This document shows positions 8,584 through 41,979 of a stretch of DNA of 43,600 bases, piece after piece (the stretch's first letter is position 1; each line of letters starts with the position of its first letter). Made by a program: the position numbers and the translations under genes. The stretch lies in the IMG/VR virus record IMGVR_UViG_3300038825_000894, positions 1 to 43,600 of that record. One strand, 5' to 3'. Under the pieces are notes generated by a model. That model saw nothing but the letters and a program-made list of their open reading frames with translations, ran no database searches and had not been told where the DNA came from. Source of the stretch: a virus.

Positions 8584-9459
8584 ATGACTGAAGAAGAAAG
8601 AAGACGACGACTAGGTATACAAACTACTCCAGAGTATGAGGACTATCTCATACGTGTTGCACAAGCGCGTGCAGCAGGACTACCTGACCCTGCACCGTTA
8701 GTTGGAGTGCCTACTGAAGAAGCACAACCTACGTCTCGCGCTGCTATGATGCAGCCCGGTGAGCAGCGGTTGATACGTCCTTACGTTGACCCTCGTGACG
8801 AGATGATTGCATCTAGCCCTGCGCTCGTACGTCCGGTTTACAGCATACTTGATCGAATGCTGCGTCCCGGTCGTGCTGGTATGGCAGATCGCATGAACCG
8901 CGAGTACATGGAGGGACTGCTTCAACGTGATGCTGACCAGCGCCGTGCATTAGCTGAGCGTCAGTTGATAGAGGCGCAAGGCCAGAAGATGCAATCGGAT
9001 GCTGCGCTTGCAGAGGTAGAGCGTAAGGCAGCAGAAGGTGATCCAGTTGCAATTGATCAACTTGAAAAGTATAGCAGAGCAATGTACGCAGGTCGTCGCA
9101 CAGAAAGTCCTGACTTTACACAACTTTTTGGAGCGGGAGGAAGTGCCGGAGGTCAGGCTAGCGGTGATCGACCTCCTATGATACCAACACCAGAAGGCGC
9201 TAGAATGCCTATGCGAAGAGCTGAACCTGCTAATCCGTACGCAAATCTGAGTGCTGAAGATGCAAGGGCATTATACGATTCTCGCATAGCTGAGATAGAT
9301 ACAACAGCACAGCAGCAGATAGATAGCGCTCCTTTGAGTAGTGTATTAACAAACGTTACTGGTGGCCCTGCTGAGACTGTACGACAAGCGGAGGCATTAA
9401 AAGCGTTAAACCTTCGACAGCTTAGAGAATATCATCCTAACGTTGCTCCTCAGTTATAA
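8584..9459 (+). CDS. Putative internal virion protein (291 aa)
   Basis: 291 residues, mostly helical and charged. It begins MTEEERRRRLG, closely resembling the start of the following giant protein (MTEEEKRRLL), so the two may share an N-terminal signal. Central coiled-coil-like stretch at about 105-165 (RRALAERQLIEAQGQKMQSD), then a disordered Pro/Ala part and a final helix. Ends by overlapping the next ATG by one base (TAATG). Inferred to be packaged and ejected with DNA. Confidence 0.55.
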   Translation: MTEEERRRRLGIQTTPEYEDYLIRVAQARAAGLPDPAPLVGVPTEEAQPTSRAAMMQPGEQRLIRPYVDPRDEMIASSPALVRPVYSILDRMLRPGRAGMADRMNREYMEGLLQRDADQRRALAERQLIEAQGQKMQSDAALAEVERKAAEGDPVAIDQLEKYSRAMYAGRRTESPDFTQLFGAGGSAGGQASGDRPPMIPTPEGARMPMRRAEPANPYANLSAEDARALYDSRIAEIDTTAQQQIDSAPLSSVLTNVTGGPAETVRQAEALKALNLRQLREYHPNVAPQL

Positions 9460-12400
9460 TGACCGAAGAAGAAAAGCGTAGGCTGCTTTTACAGTATGGG
9501 TACAATCCAGATGAGTACGATCTGGTTGAGCCTATAGAGTATTATAAAAGCGAAACGACACGACCTAGCGCAGTAGGGACAGGTTTAAAGCAAAGCGTAG
9601 GCCCGACGGTTGGCGCTCTTTACGGTGCTAAAAAAGGCGCAACGTTGCTTGGCCGTTTTGGGCCTCTACCCGGTCTAGTTGGCGGTTTTACTGGAGGTGT
9701 TATAGGCGCTATAGGCGGCGGTCTTGGTCAAGACGTTGTAGAAGAAGCTGTTTTAGAAGAGGCTGATAAAACAGCTCTCAACCTAGAGCGCCAAGCAGCA
9801 GCACAAAAATACCCTTACACAACATTCTTAGCTCAGTCAGTACCATCTGGCTTTGTTGCAGGGCCGTCGTTGACAACTCTTAAAGCACTTCCCGGTGCTA
9901 TAAAGAACGCTCCGCTACGTACAATGACTGCGCTTGAAAAACACGCACTCACAAGCGCAGGTATAGGTAGCGGTCTTGAAGCCGGTGTAGAAGCTGGTTC
10001 ACAGATAGTGAGAGGTGAGGATCTAGACTATGGTAGAATAGGCCTTGCTGGTCTTGTCGGTGGCACACTTACCGAACCTACAAGTTTAGGGCGTAAAATA
10101 TTTGACACACCTAAAGCACCTCTACCGGACAAAGTAAAAGTAAGAGATGCTGAAGGTAACGTCCAAGAGATAAACAACCCAGCGCTGATGGAGCAGTTGG
10201 CTGCTACACGTAGCCGAGTCTTTGAGGAGAAAGCCGCAGCAGAGAAGCAGCTTGAGCTAGACATTCAAGCAAACGAAGCGAAGCAAGCAGCAAACGATAG
10301 CGCCAGAGCTGACGCAGAGACAGCGAAGCGCGACGAGACAACGGCCTCGGAAGACAAGGAGTCAGCGCGGCTACTGAAAGAAGAGGGTATAACTCTGAAC
10401 AGAGAACACGCTGAAGCGAAGAAACAACGAGATGCTTTAGATCAAGAGCTTAAAAGTTTAAGCGAACAATACGACTCTGATCATATACTTGTAAGCAAAA
10501 AGAAAGCCGAAGGGCTAAAGGCTGTTCAAACACTCAAGAACGTAGAAGAACGTATACTTCAAAACAACAAAGCTAAAGCAGCTTTAAAGAACGAGACGTA
10601 CGCTCAAGAGCAGGAGGCTAATGACCTAGCTGAACTTCATATCCGCAGAGAACAAGCGATCACAGGCAAGACGCTGAAAGCTCCGCCTCCCGCTGATACG
10701 CTAAGAGCTGCCAAAGGTTTGGCAGAGCGTATCGGTATGAGTTGGCGTGCGGCTATCCCAGAAGTCGTGAAGATGGCCAACGTCGAAACGCCTGATAAGT
10801 TGCGAGGAATTTACAGCGTAGCAGAACACGCGGCTGCTATAAACGAAAAGACTGCCACACCTGACACTCCCATACACGAGGCTATTCATGGCGTATGGCA
10901 GGTTATGAAGCGCGGCGAAAACTTAAAAGATCAAGAGATCATAAGTTTTCTAGAGAACGATTTAATCAAGAGCGGCCCTGAGTTTGATAAGCTCGAAACA
11001 GCGCAGGAGAAACGCATCCTTGCCGAGGAGCTTATCGTAGAAGGCGCTGGCCGTGTGCTGACCAAGCGACTAAACGAAGCACCGCAAGGTGTTGTCAACA
11101 AGTTCAAACGCTACATTGACGACTTGATACTTGCGCGTGAGGCACGCAAAGGATTTCCACAGAAGAACCTTCAGCGCATATCTGAGTGGCTCGCTATGAG
11201 AGTAGAGCGCCAGCCAGCGTTACAACCGCAGCAGCTAGAGCTGTTTCTGAAAGACTTGCCCGTGCCGAACATTGTGACCAAGCCGGACGGTAGCAATGCT
11301 GCTGAAGAAAGTGGCGGCTTGTTCGACGACAGGATGCGCACGCAAAAGAAAAAGCAGCGCTACTACACCGACGAGGAAATCGCCAAAGAGTTTGGTAGAG
11401 TACGTGAGGCCATCGAGAAAGAGCATGGCCTCAAAGCTAGCAAGCCGCTTGTGGATGATGCCAAGCGCATCTTCAATAAGATTCAGCAAGACCATCGCAG
11501 ACTACAGAAGGTAGACGAAGACAAGACTGCCGAGGCTTTTGAGGTAGCCTCGATGTACGACCCTGCGCTCAAGGGCAAGTACAGTAAGCGAGTGCGCAGC
11601 AAGATGTCGGTCGATCAGATTCATAAGGCACTAGCCCGCTTTGCTAGCAGACCTTTCCCAGAAGACATGAGCGGGGAGGACATAGCGAAGGTCGTGAATG
11701 GTATGCCTTTGTACCACGGGTCAAGGTACTCAGACTATATGTTCTCCGCACGTGAGCGTAGGTCTCCGAAAGAGTTTGTTTTAGCTGAAGGCTTTAAAGG
11801 TGAAGGGCTTTCACCAAAAGGTAATTTAGGTCGTGGCATATACATGACTCCTTCAGAAGATATTGCCAAAGGCTATGGAGAACTCTTAACACTAAGAACA
11901 AACTTTAAAAGTCTTTATGATATAAACAAGTTATACGAGGAGCGGAGGCCTTGGCGAGGCGCTGCTGAATTTATAGAAGCAGCCGAAGAACTTGGATATC
12001 CAATAGAGCGCGACTTTAAGTATAATGAGAGGAACGTTGTAGCAATAGCCGGTGGCAATATACCTTTTGAACAAACACCTAAACTAGAAAAAGACTTTCA
12101 AGAAGGCTTAGCACCATCTGATATAAGAAATCGTGTGTTAAGTTCTATGGGTTACGATGGCTTAGTTCAAGTAACTCCCGGCTTTACTACAGAAATCGTA
12201 GCCTTCCGTGAACCATTTGAGAAAGCCAACGATACCGTAAAAGACTTCTACACAGGCCAACGCTTGCAGAGGAAAGAGGGCGGCATTAAAGGCGGCGACG
12301 ATCCTTATGGCATAGAAGACTACTTTAAGAAGTTGAACGACTACCAGCTAACGTCTGGCACAGATCACTTCTCATCTAACCCATCCATACTGCACGGCTT

Positions 12401-14954
12401 CAAGCTGACCAGCGTTGTTGATAGCATACGTCTCATCGGTAAAAGCATCGAGGAGAAGAAGTACGCGAACCAAGTTGCTGATGCGCTCGACGCTACTGCA
12501 CGGGACAGCCGTGAGTTGCAGGGCCGGTTCATAGAATCGCTGATGTTGCAGATTGCTGGTAAGAAGCTATCGAAGAAGGATGCGGAGCTGCTGCAAACTT
12601 ACATGGTTTACAAGAGGGCGAAGGAGCCGATACCTGCTGATGTGCAGCAAGCCTACGATGCGCCGAACAGTATGATACGGCATTACCACAAAGTTCTGAC
12701 CGATGCTTATCAAGAGAGTGGTAAAGTTATGGTATCGGAGGACATCAAGGTTTACTCGCGCAACACAGGCGAGTATCGCAAGCGTCTTCTTGACGAGAAC
12801 TACGTGCCAGAAACGATCAACGCTACAAAGCTGCGTGAGTTGCAGGGTGACGCTGGTGCAGCCGAGCAGCGCAATGCTCGTGCCGAACTCATCAAATACT
12901 GGAAGAGCGCCCGTAAGGACGCTGACATGATTACCGATGAGGACTTAGAGATCGCAGCCAATCGCTACATTACAAAAAGCACAGACTTCGACAACGATCT
13001 CGGTTCTTCTAAGTTCGGCGCTGTACGTAAAGTGCAGGGTCTAGGCTTACCTCGCACACGAGATGCCGCCACCGGCAAGCTGGTGTGGATTGAGCCGAGC
13101 GCAGTCAACAACTACACAAGATACTTTAAGCGCTTTGCAGATGACGTTGCGTTCTACCGTAACGTTGAAAAGAACTCCACGGTCAGCGCATTGCTAGGTG
13201 TTGCACACGAGGGAGTGCATGGCGCTCGGATAGAGAACAGTCCGTTCGTTACGCCTACCAAGAAGGAGATCGTAGAAGGACGCGAGGTCATCTTGAACGC
13301 TGGTATGACCAGCCATCCAGCCGTTCGTGATTTCATGAAAGGCTACCTCGGTTACTACGATGGTTCAGAACTTATTGGCAGGACTGCAAACCGCGTTGTA
13401 ACGAGTCATTGGTTGGGTTTAATGTCCGGCATACGTGATCTGTTTACATCTTATACACTAGCGCTGCCTTACCTTTCGTGGAACAACGCGAGTGCGCTGG
13501 CGAAGTCGTTCACTACATGGAAAGAGAACTGGACGAACAGTCATATGTACGGTGTGAACAAGGCGCAATCCAACAGAATTGAGTTTGGCCTAGAAAGTCA
13601 CAGCGCGTTGCTAGACTACGCCGATAAGTGGAGTGACTTTATGGCCAGACTTTCTGGACGTAATATGCTGGAGCGCTCAACTCGTGCGCTACAGTTTGGC
13701 TTGGGTCGTGCCGTCACGTTGCAGAACCTAACGCTCCCCGATACTAACCGGACTGCGATGCGTACGCTTCAAACGCTCAGCAGAATGTCGGGCGTGGACT
13801 ACAAGCGACTGCGCCGTCATGCAGACAACGAGACTCCTGCTAACAAAGATTTCAAGTTAAGTAAGGAAGAGTACGACGACGCGCTAAACAAGATGGCCGC
13901 TGCTTGGGTAGAAGTAAACCAAGGCACGTACGATGTTCGTGGCGTACCGTCATGGACGCTGTTCGGTGCGCCTTCGCTGTTCACCTCGCTCTCACGCTGG
14001 ACGGTAGAGAAGACCACGCGCATGGAACGTGACATTCTCAATCCGCTGCTGAACGAGGGCGACCCCAGACCGCTGCTGAAAGCTACGCTTGGCGCTTTGT
14101 TCACCGGCTACGTTTTGCAGGAGGTGAGCGAGGAGGTTTACAACAAGCTGCAAGGTTCGCCTACGTTTGAAGAGTCGTTGAAAGCGGAGAACCGTGAGGA
14201 GGCTACGTATGCTGTCGTGAATATGCTGAATCAGTCCGGTTACTTCGGCCTCGTAAGTGCGCTGCTGAACGATTGGGCTAGAGCAGAACAAGGCTACAAC
14301 CCCGACATACCGGGCGGCTTCGTGTTCCCAGCGTATGACTTCTTCACTAACACGCTGACTGATCCCCTGCTTGACGCAGCTCGCGCTATTGAAGAGGGCG
14401 CTCCTGCACTAGCAACTCTCGGTGAAGCGATTTTTGGTCAGCATGGTGTAGTCACAAAGTCCACGCAGACTTATCGCATTATGATGCAGCAAGCGTTCCT
14501 GCGTGATGAGATGTCCGACATGAATATGCGCCGTGACTACCGTGTGTTCCGTCGCCTTGAAGGTTTCAAGGATGCGCCGGTATCTCCTGAGATGGGCAAC
14601 AAGTTCATGCGCCCAGCTACGCGAGAGTTCAAGGAGGCTGAGACGCTTGAGGAAATGTACCAGAGCTTGCCGAAGGCGCTCGACGAGCAGATCGAGAGAG
14701 CGAACGGTCGCAGCGACAAACTGAAGTCCTACGTGCAGGGTATGTATACAACCTCTGATAAGACAATGCCCTCGGTGAAAACGGATGAAGGTGTTGAAGA
14801 GTTCCTACGCTACCGCCAGTACATGATGGACTTGGGTAGAGGTAAGGATTGGCAGCGTACGTTCAACGAGTGGGCAAGACGTAAGCAGATGGCTCCTGCA
14901 AGGAAGGCGCTCGTCAAAAGCTACGTGCAGCATAGGGTAGCAACGGGCGGGTGA
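9459..14954 (+). CDS. Giant polyvalent ejection protein with zincin and ADP-ribosyltransferase motifs
   Basis: 1,831 residues. Residues 45-90 are a Gly-rich hydrophobic, membrane-active-looking segment. About 245-400 is a charged coiled coil. Then HEAIH at 473-477, with an acidic pair at 523-524 (AEELIVEG), forms the HExxH plus Glu pattern of a zincin peptidase. Residues 750-916 carry an ADP-ribosyltransferase pattern: Y-H-G-S at 752-755, G-I-Y-M-T at 793-797 and a late E-I-V-A-F at 912-916. The remaining 900 residues are helical. This architecture fits the polyvalent proteins described in phages and conjugative elements, which enter the cell with the DNA and attack host defences. Whether either site is active is untested. 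Here it also occupies the position of the large podovirus internal core protein. Confidence 0.75.
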   Translation: MTEEEKRRLLLQYGYNPDEYDLVEPIEYYKSETTRPSAVGTGLKQSVGPTVGALYGAKKGATLLGRFGPLPGLVGGFTGGVIGAIGGGLGQDVVEEAVLEEADKTALNLERQAAAQKYPYTTFLAQSVPSGFVAGPSLTTLKALPGAIKNAPLRTMTALEKHALTSAGIGSGLEAGVEAGSQIVRGEDLDYGRIGLAGLVGGTLTEPTSLGRKIFDTPKAPLPDKVKVRDAEGNVQEINNPALMEQLAATRSRVFEEKAAAEKQLELDIQANEAKQAANDSARADAETAKRDETTASEDKESARLLKEEGITLNREHAEAKKQRDALDQELKSLSEQYDSDHILVSKKKAEGLKAVQTLKNVEERILQNNKAKAALKNETYAQEQEANDLAELHIRREQAITGKTLKAPPPADTLRAAKGLAERIGMSWRAAIPEVVKMANVETPDKLRGIYSVAEHAAAINEKTATPDTPIHEAIHGVWQVMKRGENLKDQEIISFLENDLIKSGPEFDKLETAQEKRILAEELIVEGAGRVLTKRLNEAPQGVVNKFKRYIDDLILAREARKGFPQKNLQRISEWLAMRVERQPALQPQQLELFLKDLPVPNIVTKPDGSNAAEESGGLFDDRMRTQKKKQRYYTDEEIAKEFGRVREAIEKEHGLKASKPLVDDAKRIFNKIQQDHRRLQKVDEDKTAEAFEVASMYDPALKGKYSKRVRSKMSVDQIHKALARFASRPFPEDMSGEDIAKVVNGMPLYHGSRYSDYMFSARERRSPKEFVLAEGFKGEGLSPKGNLGRGIYMTPSEDIAKGYGELLTLRTNFKSLYDINKLYEERRPWRGAAEFIEAAEELGYPIERDFKYNERNVVAIAGGNIPFEQTPKLEKDFQEGLAPSDIRNRVLSSMGYDGLVQVTPGFTTEIVAFREPFEKANDTVKDFYTGQRLQRKEGGIKGGDDPYGIEDYFKKLNDYQLTSGTDHFSSNPSILHGFKLTSVVDSIRLIGKSIEEKKYANQVADALDATARDSRELQGRFIESLMLQIAGKKLSKKDAELLQTYMVYKRAKEPIPADVQQAYDAPNSMIRHYHKVLTDAYQESGKVMVSEDIKVYSRNTGEYRKRLLDENYVPETINATKLRELQGDAGAAEQRNARAELIKYWKSARKDADMITDEDLEIAANRYITKSTDFDNDLGSSKFGAVRKVQGLGLPRTRDAATGKLVWIEPSAVNNYTRYFKRFADDVAFYRNVEKNSTVSALLGVAHEGVHGARIENSPFVTPTKKEIVEGREVILNAGMTSHPAVRDFMKGYLGYYDGSELIGRTANRVVTSHWLGLMSGIRDLFTSYTLALPYLSWNNASALAKSFTTWKENWTNSHMYGVNKAQSNRIEFGLESHSALLDYADKWSDFMARLSGRNMLERSTRALQFGLGRAVTLQNLTLPDTNRTAMRTLQTLSRMSGVDYKRLRRHADNETPANKDFKLSKEEYDDALNKMAAAWVEVNQGTYDVRGVPSWTLFGAPSLFTSLSRWTVEKTTRMERDILNPLLNEGDPRPLLKATLGALFTGYVLQEVSEEVYNKLQGSPTFEESLKAENREEATYAVVNMLNQSGYFGLVSALLNDWARAEQGYNPDIPGGFVFPAYDFFTNTLTDPLLDAARAIEEGAPALATLGEAIFGQHGVVTKSTQTYRIMMQQAFLRDEMSDMNMRRDYRVFRRLEGFKDAPVSPEMGNKFMRPATREFKEAETLEEMYQSLPKALDEQIERANGRSDKLKSYVQGMYTTSDKTMPSVKTDEGVEEFLRYRQYMMDLGRGKDWQRTFNEWARRKQMAPARKALVKSYVQHRVATGG

Positions 14955-20494: not shown

Positions 20495-20980
20495 TTAACC
20501 TATCGTATGATCGGCGTTCTTACGCAGAACACGTTTCAAGCGATAATTGTTGTTCATCACAGCGTTACCGTTGTCGTCAAGAACCGGGCTACCGTCGTCG
20601 CTAGTCTGAGCGCTCTGCTCAGTCTCGATGGTTACGTCAGCGGCTAAGCCGGTGTACTGATCTACGTCAGGGCTGTCCGTGTCTACGGAAGCGGAGAGAT
20701 CGAATGCGCGGTGAAACGATTTGATCTTCTTCAACGTGATCTCCATAGCACGCTCGCTGAATGACCAGTAGTCACGGAACTGTAGCCCAGCGATACGAAC
20801 TGTGTTACCTTCGAGGTCTTCGGTAGCTTCTGGAGCTACGACCTCCCATTGCAGCACGATCATAGGCGCACCGGCCTTGCTCGTGGTGAACTCAGCCTCG
20901 ATGATACGAGCTGTGTATGTGTCCTTCTTCAGATAAGGTCTTACGTTATCTGCGATGTCATCTAAGTTGATGATTGCCAT
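20495..20980 (-). CDS. Putative single-stranded DNA-binding protein (DUF669-like)
   Basis: 161 residues. The opening INLDDI, YTARIIEAEFTTSKAGAPMI, VLQWEV and FRDYWSF recall DUF669 phage proteins, which have an OB-type fold and bind single-stranded DNA. The C-terminus is not the acidic DDDIPF type of bacterial SSB but ends basic (RLKRVLRKNADHTIG). Located between polymerase and the Sak4-like recombinase, which is the usual setting for this family. The call is from remembered pattern plus context. Confidence 0.55.
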   Translation of the reverse strand: MAIINLDDIADNVRPYLKKDTYTARIIEAEFTTSKAGAPMIVLQWEVVAPEATEDLEGNTVRIAGLQFRDYWSFSERAMEITLKKIKSFHRAFDLSASVDTDSPDVDQYTGLAADVTIETEQSAQTSDDGSPVLDDNGNAVMNNNYRLKRVLRKNADHTIG

Positions 20981-23829: not shown

Positions 23830-23903
23830 TCTTTAATGTAGGTATACCAAAAAACTATGATCACTACCGACCAGAACAGATAACCGAAAGTTAATGCGCT
23901 CAT
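23826..23903 (-). CDS. 25-residue single-pass membrane micropeptide
   Basis: ATG 23903 to TGA 23826. Start and stop each overlap the neighbouring genes by four bases (ATGA), so all three are chained. The peptide is almost all hydrophobic (ALTFGYLFWSVVIIVFWYTY) with a lysine-glutamate end, so it is a membrane peptide. Precise coupling on both sides argues it is really translated. A role in membrane attachment of the replication machinery or in superinfection control is pure inference. Confidence 0.5.
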   Translation of the reverse strand: MSALTFGYLFWSVVIIVFWYTYIKE

Positions 23904-24493
23904 CGTATGATGCGAAAGCTATTGTCCTTGAACAACATCTCCGCATCGGGAGCCATCGTAGCCAGCGTGTCACGTAGCCAGCGCTCGTCGTCATCTGTTA
24001 GCGGCTCTTCTATGTTACCGCTCTCAAACATCTTGCCTTCTGTGGCAGACTCTAACCAGCGCACTACGTTATGTCGCCAAAGCGAGCTGTCGGTTGTGTG
24101 AAACTCTAGCGCCTTGCCTTCGTGGTTCTTGCGACGCATCTTACGCATACCACGTTTGAAGTACACTAGAACGCCGGGGTTCTCATCGTCTTGTATGATG
24201 CGCGTAGAAATTTGCGTACGTAGGAGGGCGTATTCTTCTGGCTCGTCTAGGTTTTCTATGAACCATAAAAGCCCATCGTTGATCTTAACGCTTAGCGTAC
24301 CTACTGTGTAGCCTGTGCCAAGTGACGGTACGAATACGTCTTTAGGTTCGGCTAGGAGCTTGTCGAGAATAGGTTTAATTGTCTCTGCGCTAGTCTCTGT
24401 ATAAGTTGAGCGCTTTATCTTGAGCGGAGAGTTTGCCTTACGCTCAGGTTTCTTGAGCTTGCCTACTACAATATCTATAGTGTCGTTGTCCAT
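23900..24493 (-). CDS. Hypothetical protein (197 aa) in replication operon
   Basis: 197 residues with Lys-rich N-terminus (KLKKPERKANSPLKIKR), a middle with YTVGTLSVKINDGLLWFIE and a C-terminal helical part. No domain recognised. First gene after the small transcription unit at 24548-24955, separated from it by a hairpin; it probably depends on readthrough or on an unseen promoter. Confidence 0.5.
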   Translation of the reverse strand: MDNDTIDIVVGKLKKPERKANSPLKIKRSTYTETSAETIKPILDKLLAEPKDVFVPSLGTGYTVGTLSVKINDGLLWFIENLDEPEEYALLRTQISTRIIQDDENPGVLVYFKRGMRKMRRKNHEGKALEFHTTDSSLWRHNVVRWLESATEGKMFESGNIEEPLTDDDERWLRDTLATMAPDAEMLFKDNSFRIIR

Positions 24494-25016: not shown

Positions 25017-25047
25017 AGCAAGATTCATGCCAAATCTTCTATCTTCT
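25017..25047 (-). promoter_or_regulatory. Sigma-54-type promoter with AGAAGAT boxes (minus strand)
   Basis: On the minus strand TGGCATGAATCTTGCT occupies 25032 down to 25017, matching the -24 GG and -12 GC of RpoN promoters with 10 nt between. AGAAGAT boxes lie at 25034-25040 and 25041-25047, the second exactly 8 nt before TGGCA; a third copy at 25062-25068 overlaps the end of the AAA+ gene. Predicted start of transcription is near 25006, giving a 51-nt leader to ATG 24955. Best of the sigma-54 matches here. Confidence 0.75.
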
Positions 25048-25059
25048 AAAACTTTTTTT

Positions 25060-25797
25060 CTATCTTCTAAACTGTGCCGGAAGTTCTTTTAGAACGTCGT
25101 ATCGCAGGATTGCTTGTTCTAGCTCACGGTAGTTACCTTCTAAGGTCGCATTGCTAGCGTAGTCTAGGAAGGTGTTATAGTCTTCGGTGTTTGTGTCTAG
25201 GTTATTGCCGATGTAGTGGGCGGCGTCGCAGGGTCGCTCACGTAGGGGTGTTAGGTGCAGGTTGAAAGTGGAGAGTCGGTAGTATAGGTCTTTACGAAAG
25301 CGACCGGAGGCGATCAAGTCTTGTAGCGGAGCGCAGGTTGCTGCGATAACTCGGCAGTTAGCTGTGCGCTCCTCGTTGTCACCGACTCTACGGTACGTGC
25401 CGAACTGGATGAAGCGTAGCACCTTGGCTTGCAGGTCGTAGGGCATATCGCCTATCTCATCGAGGAACAGCGTACCGTTGGCGGCGTGTTCTACGAGGCC
25501 GGTCTTGTCTCGGAAAGCGCCGGTAAAGCTACCCTTGAGGTGGCCGAACAGCTCGCTCTCAAAGAGAGTATCGGTTACGGCTGTCGTGTTCACGGTAGAG
25601 AACTCACCGCTACGTGTACCGTGAAGTATACGAGCGATGAGTTCCTTACCTGTGCCTGTCTCACCTGTGATGAGTACGGGTTCGCTGCGCGGCGCTAGCT
25701 TGACGGCAGCTTCTACCGTGCGCTTTGTCGCAGCGTCAACCGTGCTGTAGTCTTGGACAGCTTGCGCAAACGCTAGGTATCTTTCTTTCTCAGTCAT
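25060..25797 (-). CDS. Sigma-54 activator-type AAA+ protein lacking a DNA-binding domain
   Basis: 245 residues from ATG 25797; a GTG at 25872 would overlap the upstream gene heavily. It carries the complete central domain of bacterial enhancer-binding proteins: Walker A GETGTGKE 45-52, sigma-54-contacting loop GSFTGA 89-94 (usual form GAFTGA), Walker B GTLFLDEIGD 108-117, FRKDLYYRL arginine-finger region 167-175, and GNYRELEQ 221-228 (usual GNVREL). Only 17 residues follow, so there is no helix-turn-helix, and no receiver or sensor domain precedes it. Predicted to hydrolyse ATP and open host sigma-54 RNA polymerase promoters from solution. Last gene of the early operon; three sigma-54-type promoters occur in the genome, one immediately downstream. 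Confidence 0.85.
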   Translation of the reverse strand: MTEKERYLAFAQAVQDYSTVDAATKRTVEAAVKLAPRSEPVLITGETGTGKELIARILHGTRSGEFSTVNTTAVTDTLFESELFGHLKGSFTGAFRDKTGLVEHAANGTLFLDEIGDMPYDLQAKVLRFIQFGTYRRVGDNEERTANCRVIAATCAPLQDLIASGRFRKDLYYRLSTFNLHLTPLRERPCDAAHYIGNNLDTNTEDYNTFLDYASNATLEGNYRELEQAILRYDVLKELPAQFRR

Positions 25798-26071
25798 GGT
25801 ATACGTGATCTGTGATGCCACGGTAGCGGCTGTAGTCTGTGGGCGTGAACGTTTCGAGAGCCAGACGCTCACGGTAGTGGCGAGCTAGCATAGCGTCCCA
25901 GCCCTCCTTGAGTAGCCGAAGCATCTCGGACTTGTCGTAGGTGAACACTACGTCACGCTTGTCGTATGTTGTATTGCCGGGGCTAAGCATAGCTATCTCC
26001 GTGTCGTCTTCGAGTTCGCCTAGTTTGTATGCGCCTGTTGGCGTGCGGAAGTTAACCCTTACTATACTCAT
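25790..26071 (-). CDS. Hypothetical protein (93 aa)
   Basis: 93 residues: IVRVNFRTPTGAYKLGEL, then RLLKEGWDAMLARHYRERLAL. The short basic C-terminal part has several Arg and Tyr. Gene overlaps the AAA+ gene start by 8 nt, so the two are coexpressed. Could be a partner of the activator, but there is no sequence evidence for that. Confidence 0.55.
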   Translation of the reverse strand: MSIVRVNFRTPTGAYKLGELEDDTEIAMLSPGNTTYDKRDVVFTYDKSEMLRLLKEGWDAMLARHYRERLALETFTPTDYSRYRGITDHVYHD

Positions 26072-31590: not shown

Positions 31591-31790
31591 CTTACAGAGA
31601 CTGAGTCTCGTTTGCAAATCGCCTCGGAGAGTGTGGGCTACGCCCAGAATGAGTTACTGTACAGAACTATAACCTGCTCTGAAAAAATGACTTCTGAAAC
31701 TTTTTGGTTAGAAGATGCACTGCGAGCTACGCTACAGCGGCAGGGTAGAAGATGAGCGCCGTGGCACGGGAATTGCTATTTGGCGGGGGT
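31591..31790 (+). other. Non-coding stretch before the late promoter
   Basis: About 200 nt without a convincing gene. It contains a palindrome GAGACT-G-AGTCTC near 31598, a short GGGC-TAC-GCCC hairpin near 31638, an AGAAGAT box at 31710-31716 and another at 31747-31753 that belongs to the promoter below. No tRNA structure found. Confidence 0.4.
31747..31777 (+). promoter_or_regulatory. Sigma-54-type late promoter with AGAAGAT box
   Basis: TGGCACGGGAATTGCT at 31762-31777 is a full match to the -24/-12 consensus TGGCACG-N4-TTGC. AGAAGAT at 31747-31753 ends exactly 8 nt before it. Predicted start of transcription near 31788, about 99 nt ahead of ATG 31887. It would transcribe the ejection-type gene, terminase and portal genes. 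Confidence 0.75.
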
Positions 31791-31886: not shown

Positions 31887-34800
31887 ATGGCAACGCCAGC
31901 TTTCACGGGAGTTGACTACCTCTCTGCGCTTTCTGAATTTCCCGGTGGGCCTCAAGGTCTCATAGATGCGGCTGTTGAGCGTTTTGGCGCTCAAGGTCTG
32001 ACAGCAACCCCACGAGGCGACGACTTCTCGTTGTACGTGCCGGGTGAGTTCATGTCGTCTGGTAGGCCGACAAACTATGCTTCAGTGCTTGCCGACCCGA
32101 CAGTAGGAGGCAGTTACTACGACTACTTGTACAGTACACCAGCGTTTAAAGACATTTACACAAACATACTGTCTCCGACGCTGACAGGACTTCAGCAAGC
32201 ACCCCAACAAACAGGTTACGCTAGCAGACCCAACTACGGCGCAACCCGACCCATAGCTAAAGCAGGGCCAACAGTTGACCCCATCATAGGTGAAACGCAA
32301 CAGCCACCTCCAGCTACAGTTCCGTTGGAGCCATCGCCGCGCATTGCAGAAGCAGCCCAGCCAAGCATACCTACTGAGCGTCAAACCTTAGAAAGTGCTT
32401 TAACGGCTACGCCAACAACCCCAACGCAGCCAGCAACGCCGTTGCCTGTTGTAGATCGCGTAGCTGAGCCAACACCACCGCAAGCTCAGCCAACTCCGAT
32501 AGATACACGGACTGCGCAAGAGAAAGCTACGGATGAGTATTTTGACCTTGTTAACCGTGTGGAGTTTGGTGGAAAAGAAGTTTTAAAACGTTCGCTAACA
32601 CGCGATCCAGCAGCGACCACAGCAATTACACGTGAAGTAGCAGCAGAAAGACCGCCTACGAAGGGCTTAGTGCTTGATATGCCCCTAACGTCTCGTTATC
32701 CAGACTCTACTGGACAGCAATACCTGAGAGGCGGCTTAGATGCTTTTGCTTACAGCGGCCCTCAAGGCTATGCTGACGTTAGGCAACGGCTTCTAGGTGA
32801 ACCTGCTGACGTATTAACGGGGCCAGAGGTAGATTGGCAACGGCTAGCGCAACCAGCTCCGTCAGACATTTATCTTGAGACAGGCTTTCCAGACATCTCA
32901 GTAGACGACATCCTTGCTAACATTCCTAAAGTTGATCCGAAGCTAGCACCACCGCCGCCACCTACACCAAAAGCTTTTGCAGATACAACGGCAGAGCTTG
33001 TTGAAATAGACAGAGATAATCTGTTTGACCGTGTTATAGAGGATTACGGCGAACTTGAGCTAGAGCGCAAAGAAGATTTAAAAAATCGCATAGACTCTTT
33101 TATGCCGGAAGCCGGTGAACTTTCACCATATCCCGTTGACCTTAGAAGCAAAGAAGCTGAAGGCTTCAAGTTTTACGAACATCCGAAAACTAAAGCTGTT
33201 GTAGGAAACATAATAGGAAACATTAAGAACGTCATCACTAAAGCAGGTGATGGTGTAGAAGTTGCAGTAAAACACTTAAAAGGGCTTACAGATGAGCTTA
33301 CGCGCTTTGTAGAACGTAACGGTGGCCGTAGTTCTGTTGAGCAACAGGCTTGGGGGCCAACACTTCTTGGCGTTACAGACATACTTACGGGCGATTTAAA
33401 GGGTTTTGATAAGCAAACGCAGGGTGACATTCAATGGGCAGCAGTAGCTATCGCGATAGCTGAGTACGGAACTCCTATAGGCAACGCTATCGGCGCTATG
33501 CAGCTAGCGAATACAATCAAAGATTGGGGTAAATCTACTGTAAACGTGTCAACTTTTGACAGCCCCTTGTATGAGTCTGGCAATGAAGCATCGTTCGACG
33601 CAGCTTACAGAGACTCGATTGAGTTTGTAGGAGATGTGTTGCGTCCGATGGCTAAAACCATTTCTAAATACACTTTAGACAAGTTAGCTAAAGATGTTCC
33701 AGCAGATGCTAGCGTAAGGCAAAAGCTGCAAGCGGTTTTTGGCCGTGAAATAGGGGAAATGGAAGGGCCAAAACAGTTTGCCATAACTGATCAAGAGCCT
33801 GTTCAAGGGCCGCAGCAAGACCCGACAGGGCAAATAACGCTAGAGGTTCCTGATGTAGGAGTGCCTTCAGCACCTACTCCTGCGTTAAACATAGAAAGGC
33901 CTACAACACAAACACCTATAGCGTCTAGAACACTAACGCCAATAGAAGTTGAGTATGAAACTGCACAACAACCTACAGCAGTTGGTGGCACACAGCCAGT
34001 TGTTGGCGCTCCGCAGACCGTTGTAGAAAGCAGAGCGCCCATTAGTTTGGGTGATATTGCTACGTCGCCTCTAACAGAAGTGCCTTTTGACCGTGGTGAT
34101 GTGTTGGATTTATCACAACCTAGAATAGACCCCTTACAATCTACAGATTCTTTTGGTCGTGTGATCCCCACGCTAGATGAGCTTACATTTGTGCCAGACA
34201 CGGCAACTATGCCAAGTCCGTTTACTGGCATGGGTGTGAGTGCGGGGGCGCTAGATCGTCCGATGTCTACGTTACCGGGAGCTGAGTTAATACCAGTAGA
34301 CTCTGATCGCATACCTATAGCAGATGACATACAGCTTGGAGTACCACGACCACAAACACGTGGAGCTACTGAAGGTACAACGCCTTTTACTGAGGTTGCG
34401 CCAAGACCTTCACTTGAGCCTATTACAAGAGAGCCAGCAGATGCCATAAACGCTTCCTTACCTGTTGACGCAAACGGTCAGGTAACTACAAACATAAAAG
34501 ACATTGTAGGCTTTCGCAATTTTTCGACTAATGTAGAAAGTTTGACAGAAATGTTTGGCGGAGGAGAAGCTGGTGCGAGGGCTGCTAGTGCAATTGCTGC
34601 TGGCGCTGGCCCACAATACGGCAACCCACTACCAGAACTACGTGAGCAATGGAACATTCAGCAAACGCAAACTCTAGAAGATGAGTTAAAGACTAAGGCT
34701 ATAGACTCGTTTGTTGACTCAACAGGCAGTCCTGAAGGTTTTAAACAAGCATTTCCCGATTATCAAAACACGGTTAAGCGTACAATAGACAGAAATCATG

Positions 34801-40317: not shown

Positions 40318-40346
40318 AAGATAGCGCCCTTGGCATGAATTGTGCT
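40316..40346 (+). promoter_or_regulatory. Sigma-54-type promoter of the capsid gene with AGAAGAT box
   Basis: TGGCATGAATTGTGCT at 40331-40346 has GG, ten bases and GC as required for RpoN, with a near-consensus -24. AGAAGAT (40316-40322, overlapping the scaffold stop) lies exactly 8 nt upstream. An inverse copy ATCTTCT is at 40272-40278. Predicted start about 40357. Differs by 2 of 16 bases from the promoter at 25017. Confidence 0.7.
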
Positions 40347-40356
40347 TGCTTCTAGG

Positions 40357-40506
40357 CGTGCTTCAATTCGGGTAAGGGCATACCCACTTTACTGAGGAAA
40401 CTTAGTAAGTCTTGCTTCTAATAGGCGAAGGGCATCGCAGCGTAAGGAAAGACGCGCAGAGATGTCTTTCGCTTTTTTGTTTAACAATACTTACATATAA
40501 AACATT
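40357..40506 (+). ncRNA. Structured leader or small RNA ahead of the major capsid gene
   Basis: Predicted transcript from the promoter above folds into successive hairpins by eye: GGGTA-AGGGCA-TACCC (40370-40385), a 9-bp stem TTTACTGAG / CTTAGTAAG with a GAAA tetraloop (40388-40409), GCGA-AGGGCA-TCGC (40425-40438) and GAAAGAC / GTCTTTC (40447-40470) followed by GCTTTTTT. The two hairpins share the loop AGGGCA and each follows a CTTGCTTCTA segment. It could be a regulated leader of the capsid mRNA or a free small RNA of about 120 nt. The capsid ATG has no Shine-Dalgarno sequence close by. Confidence 0.5.
40447..40477 (+). terminator. Terminator-like stem in the capsid leader
   Basis: Perfect 7-bp stem GAAAGAC / GTCTTTC with a 10-nt loop, then GCTTTTTTG, a good intrinsic terminator. 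It sits between the promoter at 40331 and the capsid start at 40507, so it either attenuates capsid transcription or ends a small RNA, as well as ending readthrough from scaffold. Confidence 0.65.
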
Positions 40507-41979
40507 ATGGCTTCATCAGTAAATGCAGCAGCAGTAAACAATGCCGCTAGTAACGCAGCAGTTACAACTGGCGGTGAGTTCAAGAAGTTAAGTTTTTACT
40601 TAGCAAAAAACGAGGTTGCCCTTTATCCGAAATGGAACGTCTACGACCAGCTTTTCGGTTCTATCGCATGGCAACCTAATATGGGGAGTACCCTAACAGG
40701 GACAACTCCAACGCCTTCACCAGTAACTCGTACTACTTTCATGCCGGAAACGCTTGATACTTTTCCGAAGAAAGATCAGTACACAGTTGGTGAATATACG
40801 GAAGACGCTCAACTCGGTATGCACCGTTTTGAGTCGAATCGTTTCCGCTTCCTAAACAACTTTGAGTCTTTCTGGAGAGATCACTTGAGCTACGCTCAGG
40901 CTGACATCGTACGTCAGATCCAATGCGCGAATAACATCTTTATTCGTACGTTGATGTACTACCAAGCTCCTGACGCTTATGTTGCTAACAAGGGACTTAG
41001 CTCTCAGATTGGTCATACAAGCGGCATCAGAAAGCGTGGGTTCTCTCAGGCATCTATCAGACTTATCGAAAACGGTGATGATAGCTTAGACACTAATACT
41101 ACTCACTCTGTTGATGGTGTTGCAGCTAACACTATCTCCAAGTCTGGTGGTGTTAAGTTTAAGGAAGATTGCGCCGAAGGTGGTAATGATAGTGATACTG
41201 ACGGTAACGTACCCGCAGGTAACTTAACTTTGAAGGAAATCTTCAAGGCTATGCTTGTGTTGCAGGAAGACGTTGCTGCTCCTACGTTTGATCGTATCTA
41301 CAACGTGCCAAAGCAGTCTGAGATGGTTAAGGGCAAATACGTTCTTGTCTGCTCGACTGAGGCTTGGTCTTCGTTGTTGTGGGATAGCAACTTGCGTACA
41401 AACAATACCACATCGGGTGGCGCTACCCAGCTTGCTCCAGCTAACATGAACCTTCTGCAAGATGGTTTTGCTGGTGACTTGTTCGGCAAGGTTACTGCTA
41501 AGTTCGACCAGTATCCGTTACGTTTCGACCATAACGGTGATTGGGTTGTTCCGCAAACCGTCGATACCGGAACTGGTAAGGTTGTACCTAACCCATCTTA
41601 TACTGCTATTGGTGATGGTAGTGGTACTGACGCGAACGATGCCTCTGCGAATGATGCTGGCAATGCCTCTTATGAGGTTGCGTTCTTGGTAGGTGCTGAT
41701 GCGTTCAAAACCATTCAAGTTGGGCCGCCGCCTAGCGAGTTTGCGTCTAAGAACATGAGCGCCAAGAAGTTCTACAGCATGAAGTGGAACGGTGAGGTTC
41801 ACCTTACTGATCAGTTCTTGATACCGAATAGCGGCACTCCGTTGTCTGATACTGGTACTCAAGACTTGAACGTCTACGGTGATTACTTGAAGTTCATCTC
41901 GCAAGCTACGTTCGGTGGCATCCCCGGTGATGCTCGCTACTGCTTGCCGATCATCTTCAAGCGTCAGCGCGTAAGCTAA
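40507..41979 (+). CDS. Major capsid protein
   Basis: 490 residues. Location after the scaffold gene, own promoter and following terminator, plus a sequence composition typical of HK97-fold coat proteins, support this. An N-terminal arm rich in Ala/Ser/Asn (SSVNAAAVNNAASNAA) is followed by a helical and beta body including RFRFLNNFESFWRDHL and a Gly-rich C-terminal part. Larger than T7 gp10 (344), suggesting an insertion around residues 170-230 or 325-385. The most abundant virion protein; it forms the icosahedral shell. Confidence 0.75.
   Translation: MASSVNAAAVNNAASNAAVTTGGEFKKLSFYLAKNEVALYPKWNVYDQLFGSIAWQPNMGSTLTGTTPTPSPVTRTTFMPETLDTFPKKDQYTVGEYTEDAQLGMHRFESNRFRFLNNFESFWRDHLSYAQADIVRQIQCANNIFIRTLMYYQAPDAYVANKGLSSQIGHTSGIRKRGFSQASIRLIENGDDSLDTNTTHSVDGVAANTISKSGGVKFKEDCAEGGNDSDTDGNVPAGNLTLKEIFKAMLVLQEDVAAPTFDRIYNVPKQSEMVKGKYVLVCSTEAWSSLLWDSNLRTNNTTSGGATQLAPANMNLLQDGFAGDLFGKVTAKFDQYPLRFDHNGDWVVPQTVDTGTGKVVPNPSYTAIGDGSGTDANDASANDAGNASYEVAFLVGADAFKTIQVGPPPSEFASKNMSAKKFYSMKWNGEVHLTDQFLIPNSGTPLSDTGTQDLNVYGDYLKFISQATFGGIPGDARYCLPIIFKRQRVS

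Follow-up and report, generated by a model that had tools for sequence, protein, structure and literature searches.

Twin AGGGCA-loop hairpins before the capsid gene of an uncultured phage lineage, a probable cis-acting RNA switch

The capsid gene of an uncultured phage is preceded by two hairpins with the same loop, and the question is what such a leader does. The window, that is, the whole 43,600-nt stretch of DNA that was analysed, is a 43.6-kb phage record (IMG/VR IMGVR_UViG_3300038825_000894) with the gene order terminase, portal-like gene, gene in the scaffold position, and capsid gene. The capsid leader is the interval between the end of the upstream gene (40317) and the capsid ATG (40507). 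A sequence-only reading had described twin AGGGCA-loop hairpins, a GAAA-capped stem, and a terminator, all of which are present in the leader, where the following parts were distinguished:

40330–40346 (+): sigma-54-type promoter, TTGGCATGAATTGTGCT, with GG at 40332–40333 and GC at 40344–40345; expected transcript start near 40357
40360–40365 (+): box 1, GCTTCA, kept in relatives 5′ of hairpin 1
40370–40385 (+): hairpin 1, GGGUA-AGGGCA-UACCC; stem pairs co-vary, loop nearly invariant
40388–40409 (+): 9-bp stem with a GAAA tetraloop, an optional insert between the hairpins that is missing in most other clades
40414–40419 (+): box 2, GCTTCT, preceding hairpin 2
40425–40438 (+): hairpin 2, GCGA-AGGGCA-UCGC, the switchable copy, complementary to its own leader
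40424–40479 (+): alternative fold (terminator), 40424–40436 paired with 40461–40473 and a U-run at 40473–40478, from folding energy and a terminator-like site listed here
40440–40470 (+): possible H-type pseudoknot, from a by-eye reading of 10 distinct clade sequences
40440–40443 with 40452–40455 (+): putative pseudoknot helix P3, GCGU/ACGC
40447–40451 with 40466–40470 (+): putative pseudoknot helix P4, GAAAG/CUUUC
40507–41979 (+): major capsid protein gene, 490 aa, N4-gp56-like HK97 fold, from a predicted model and fold matches

Some details of the earlier description had to be revised. CTTGCTTCTA had been placed before each hairpin, but its first copy (40345–40354) overlaps the −12 element, 5′ of where the transcript should start; the conserved boxes are instead GCTTCA before hairpin 1 and GCTTCT before hairpin 2. 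The capsid start indeed has no Shine-Dalgarno sequence, as had been remarked, but this does not set it apart, as most genes in the window have none.

The leader belongs to a family that was recovered in two ways, by pattern and independently by capsid protein. The capsid protein query found 16 IMG/VR loci at 63–91% identity, and the capsid alignments extended to family members at 25–30% identity. The initial IMG/VR pattern lacked stringency, and its matches were mainly chance ones in coding DNA; the scan for two AAGGGCAT loops with an intervening box returned 57 stretches. All identified true instances of the twin-hairpin RNA precede one capsid family. A host version was sought in bacterial genomes, and none of the 74 pattern matches was kept after stem filtering. 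The capsid protein had no match among named phages; with the terminase, Akkermansia phages were matched, at just 31%. Two phyla (388 and 395 genomes), entered through one Verrucomicrobia and one Flavobacteriaceae assembly, were examined for prophages, and none carried this capsid. In L019 (5176–5290) and L061, 26-nt tandem repeats with GAAGGGCATCAG were seen that are unrelated to the capsid leader.

Among 45 leaders reached by capsid protein similarity alone and mutually more than 25% different, 33 had twin hairpins, whereas none of 200 shuffled sets gave any twin; at least one hairpin was present in 39, against a mean of 0.5 in the 200 shuffled sets. Because a MAFFT alignment of whole leaders (A1) breaks up the 3′ arm of hairpin 1, fixed-length units were counted. 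Over 31 distinct twin units, 94.5% of stem cells were paired (56.4% when shuffled), two-sided stem changes numbered 124 (40.5 when shuffled), and the covariation score was 0.944, compared with 0.189 when shuffled and at most 0.171 when the partner was slid. Compensatory change had been named earlier as the check on the structure, and across the relatives it strongly favours it. The stems (4–7 bp) vary freely yet remain paired, and the 6-nt AGGGCA loop is nearly invariant, with AGAGCA, AGGGUA, and UGGGCA as the few variants. The A-U pair closing the loop is constant in the 31-unit set because the collecting pattern contains it; the loop is AGGGCA regardless of the closing pair, which is A-U in the window and U-A, C-G, or U-G in distant clades. 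Rfam gave no gathering match in the window and no leader match better than E 4.6, and in 15 relatives it gave only two matches, both to snoRNA models and below gathering (sR52, E 0.4; snoU85, E 0.064).

A box reading GCUWC, GCCUC, or similar begins approximately 7–12 nt 5′ of each stem, and pairing between box GCY and loop GGC is possible in 42/43 distinct units (permutation p 0.027). Matched changes of box and loop occur in L266 (ACUU with AGGGUA) and in L269/L270 (GCUU with AGAGCA); since the L266 box was chosen by eye, support for a box–loop pseudoknot is modest. These pairings are suggestive, and each hairpin may fold back onto its own box.

A sigma-54-type promoter (TGGCAN-N5-NNGC) precedes 42/45 of the distinct homologous leaders, compared with 0.7 expected in shuffles; such promoters are marked by GG and GC ten bases apart, with TGGCAY and TTGC. 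In the capsid promoter of the window GG-N10-GC is intact, but GTGC replaces TTGC, so that this copy falls outside the regular expression as a weaker match. The earlier interpretation is supported in this respect: downstream of a sigma-54-type promoter lies a structured leader, regulatory in character, whose repeated hairpins resemble binding sites. The window also encodes an activator, and two further promoters of this type were listed:

25060–25872 (−): sigma-54 activator of 270 aa, AAA+ domain with a GSFTGA loop (PF00158, E 9.5e-57)
25017–25033 (−): second sigma-54-type promoter, TTGGCATGAATCTTGCT, directly after the activator gene
31762–31777 (+): third sigma-54-type promoter, TGGCACGGGAATTGCT, before the ORF at 31887

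The activator has the AAA+ domain and GAFTGA-type loop that define a bEBP, and the loop was aligned in 12 genomes; neither a receiver domain nor a helix-turn-helix was seen in its sequence. The PF00158 domain is encoded in 37/37 relatives tested, and it exceeded the cut-off in 1/29 control contigs, which were IMG/VR chance matches from the two pattern scans. The promoter right after the activator gene has the same placement in several relatives, and that at 31762–31777 (+) heads an apparent structural operon. This phage lineage appears to combine the sigma-54 of its host with an activator of its own. Across the 12 genomes that were scanned, no twin hairpins were found at other sigma-54-type sites; they occur in the capsid leader only.

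Hairpin 2 differs from hairpin 1 in its relation to the downstream leader. In a set of 30 long twin leaders, hairpin 2 paired with its own downstream leader at a mean of −17.18 kcal/mol, whereas clade-swapped leaders gave −11.94 kcal/mol (sd 0.54) and none of 5,000 permutations reached the observed value. The same comparison gave no signal for hairpin 1 (−10.80 vs −10.76 kcal/mol; 2325/5000 permutations). Hairpin 2 is therefore specifically complementary to its own downstream leader, and the RNA has two mutually exclusive, conserved folds, as expected of a cis-acting leader switch. In the window, the fold of 40424–40474 alone has −24.9 kcal/mol (z −5.3), and its stem is followed by six T; in close relatives of the same clade, the matching strand is followed by 7/8 T. 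An intrinsic terminator thus exists, as had been reported, but it does not form a hairpin of its own further downstream: hairpin 2 supplies its ascending arm, so that hairpin 2 and the terminator exclude each other. For this reason, the suggested control of readthrough fits the window's clade, but other clades mostly have no U-run, and terminator-like U-runs are a minority across the family. In most other long leaders, the matching strand ends within approximately 20 nt of the start codon with no U-run after it, and in L254 it overlaps the GTG start. Five long leaders (L254, L260, L262, L277, and L411) show no preference for their own downstream strand over the strands of other leaders. Short marine leaders (77–86 nt; L284, L292, and L318) have the twin hairpins, but the matching strand was not found in them; the switch is therefore not universal, and the hairpins must have some role there as well.

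In the window's clade and in the L006 clade, the putative P3/P4 pseudoknot can form beside hairpin 2, with which it is compatible, but not beside the terminator, whose 3′ arm it occupies in the window's clade. Its pairs were read by eye, since alignment A9 places the clades one base out of register with each other; so read, P4 occurs as GAAAG/CUUUC, GAGGA/UCUUC, GGAGA/UCUUC, GAGAGU/ACUCUC, GGGAGU/ACUCCC, and GGAGAU/AUCUCC. We rejected the idea of a conserved leader peptide, as the short ATG frame in the terminator arm of the window is missing in L002 and L003.

Comparative sequence analysis thus demonstrates the predicted folds, their conservation, and their exclusivity. The conserved module, the strand that tracks hairpin 2 by clade, and the two kinds of output together lead us to propose that the capsid mRNA leader is a cis-acting RNA switch, in which factor-bound hairpins let the capsid gene be expressed; we consider this explanation likely, although well short of certain. 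The conserved binding module consists of the two box-plus-hairpin units with the AGGGCA loop. In fold A hairpin 2 is formed, and in fold B it is opened by the clade-matched downstream strand. The factor would be made, or be present, late in infection and would most likely be a protein; it would bind both hairpins together, with hairpin 1 always available and hairpin 2 as the conditional half, and its binding would hold fold A. In the window's clade, fold A would block the terminator and would allow the pseudoknot on the terminator 3′ arm, so that RNA polymerase would enter the capsid gene. Elsewhere, in the majority of clades, fold A would leave the strand that ends near the start codon single-stranded, and translation of the capsid gene could proceed. 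The off state would be fold B, adopted when the factor is missing. We infer that fold A is the on state and that its output is antitermination or start-site release. A more specific form of this proposal, which we put forward tentatively and think less likely to be right than wrong, is a new class of phage RNA switch, in which a dedicated late protein of the lineage reads the twin hairpins and couples production of the capsid to a phage-run sigma-54 programme.

One gene was noted as a candidate reader or regulator of the twin hairpins. It lies near the activator gene (23900–24493, −), encodes a 197-aa protein without a family match, and is present in 10/12 genomes compared; by BLAST, its product was found in 9/9 twin-hairpin genomes and 1/3 without twin hairpins. 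Separately, a DUF669-like gene (20495–20980, −) was found by BLAST in 9/9 twin-hairpin genomes and 0/3 without, a contrast that BLAST sensitivity may explain, and a 1831-aa ORF (9459–14954, +) without a Pfam or PHROG match is present in 11/12 genomes.

Other mechanisms were weighed against the switch. The twin hairpins could act as an antiterminator of the HK022 put type, binding RNA polymerase itself and resisting this and later terminators with no separate factor. The arrangement is reminiscent of putL, which spans approximately 70 nt and forms two stem-loops immediately after a promoter (PMC9378689); here, too, two conserved hairpins lie near the transcript start, followed by a terminator in the window's clade. 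However, hairpin 2 itself forms part of the terminator, clades without a U-run also show selection for complementarity to hairpin 2, and the RNA stands solely before the capsid gene and not at other sigma-54-type sites of the same genomes. In addition, the published put has two long bulged stems with a triplex (PMC9378689), and the capsid leader has stems of 4–7 bp with a 6-nt loop. We therefore regard antitermination of this type as improbable.

No better placed is autoregulation, in which free capsid or scaffold protein would bind the twin hairpins and lower or raise capsid synthesis; this is one choice of ligand inside the switch explanation and not an opposing mechanism. The RNA is capsid-gene-specific throughout the lineage, and twin identical sites would suit a dimeric or multivalent protein. 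The capsid protein of the window has no PHROG or Pfam match, and a model predicted from 21 relatives was of moderate confidence (mean pLDDT 59.4, pTM 0.65); its best fold matches were capsids, with N4-like phage DEV and N4 first (E 6.6e-9), and many capsids of N4-like and other phages were matched, consistent with an HK97 fold. Nothing ties this capsid family to RNA binding, and L363, L364, and L448 have the same capsid protein family yet no twin hairpins, so that this ligand is also an unlikely one. Among distant members, a single hairpin is found in L355 and L414, and none in L363, L364, and L448. In L363 and L364, which have no AGGGCA hairpins, the capsid gene is nevertheless preceded by a strong terminator-like stem and by a sigma-54-type promoter.

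In the L006 clade, both hairpins persist without a local promoter or terminator, and hairpin 1 overlaps the preceding gene's stop codon; the RNA is therefore conserved for itself. Hairpins at a gene junction would fit a 5′-end stabiliser or processing site, where they mark an RNase cut or shield the 5′ end so that the capsid mRNA outlives its neighbours, and the short leaders without a switch strand fit it as well. Such a role leaves unexplained why the downstream strand follows hairpin 2 but not hairpin 1, and it does not account for the nearly invariant loop and box; we give it slightly less credence than the two preceding explanations. That the locus yields a trans-acting small RNA of approximately 120 nt ending at the terminator, a product suggested earlier, is very improbable, and a general role of this kind is unlikely, since the L006 clade has the hairpins but neither of the two elements that would delimit such a transcript: promoter and terminator do bound a 120-nt unit in the window's clade, but U-runs are absent from most other clades, and the RNA is always immediately 5′ of the capsid gene.

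The preferred reading, a cis-acting switch, concerns a structured RNA family with a testable switch before the gene in heaviest use in a widespread, uncultured phage lineage. Every tested member of the lineage encodes a sigma-54 activator, and the capsid gene has a sigma-54-type promoter in nearly all. In open papers, we found no account of this RNA or of a lineage-wide phage sigma-54 activator; the structured RNA family before the capsid gene is apparently undescribed.

Several known systems share parts of this design. A lambda-type nut site consists of boxA plus the boxB hairpin, and the capsid leader likewise has a linear box followed by a small hairpin; it differs in having two such units, box and loop sequences other than those of nut, and a hairpin that pairs with a downstream strand. 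The CsrA/RsmA motif is GGA in a hairpin loop. Its sites resemble the leader in their paired hairpins with G-rich loops, but the leader has AGGGCA, without GGA, in nearly all units and a specific box before each stem. TwoAYGGAY, a comparative-genomics candidate RNA from human gut, gamma-Proteobacteria, and Clostridiales (Weinberg 2010, PMC2864571), would be alike, judging by its name, in two hairpins with similar loops; the loop here is AGGGCA, and TwoAYGGAY had no match in the Rfam scans of the window and 15 relatives. HK022 put is likewise a phage element with two stem-loops near the transcript start, placed as the hairpins are before the terminator in the window's clade, whereas the second hairpin of the capsid leader belongs to the terminator, and its short hairpins with an invariant loop serve one gene only. 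Ribosomal-protein leaders and RNA-binding antiterminators are similar in combining a conserved binding module with a variable downstream platform. Protein-dependent leader switches also use a terminator in part of their members and pairing at the start site in other members; what distinguishes the leader described here is its twin AGGGCA hairpins, its GCUWC boxes, its place before a phage capsid gene, and its sigma-54-type promoters.
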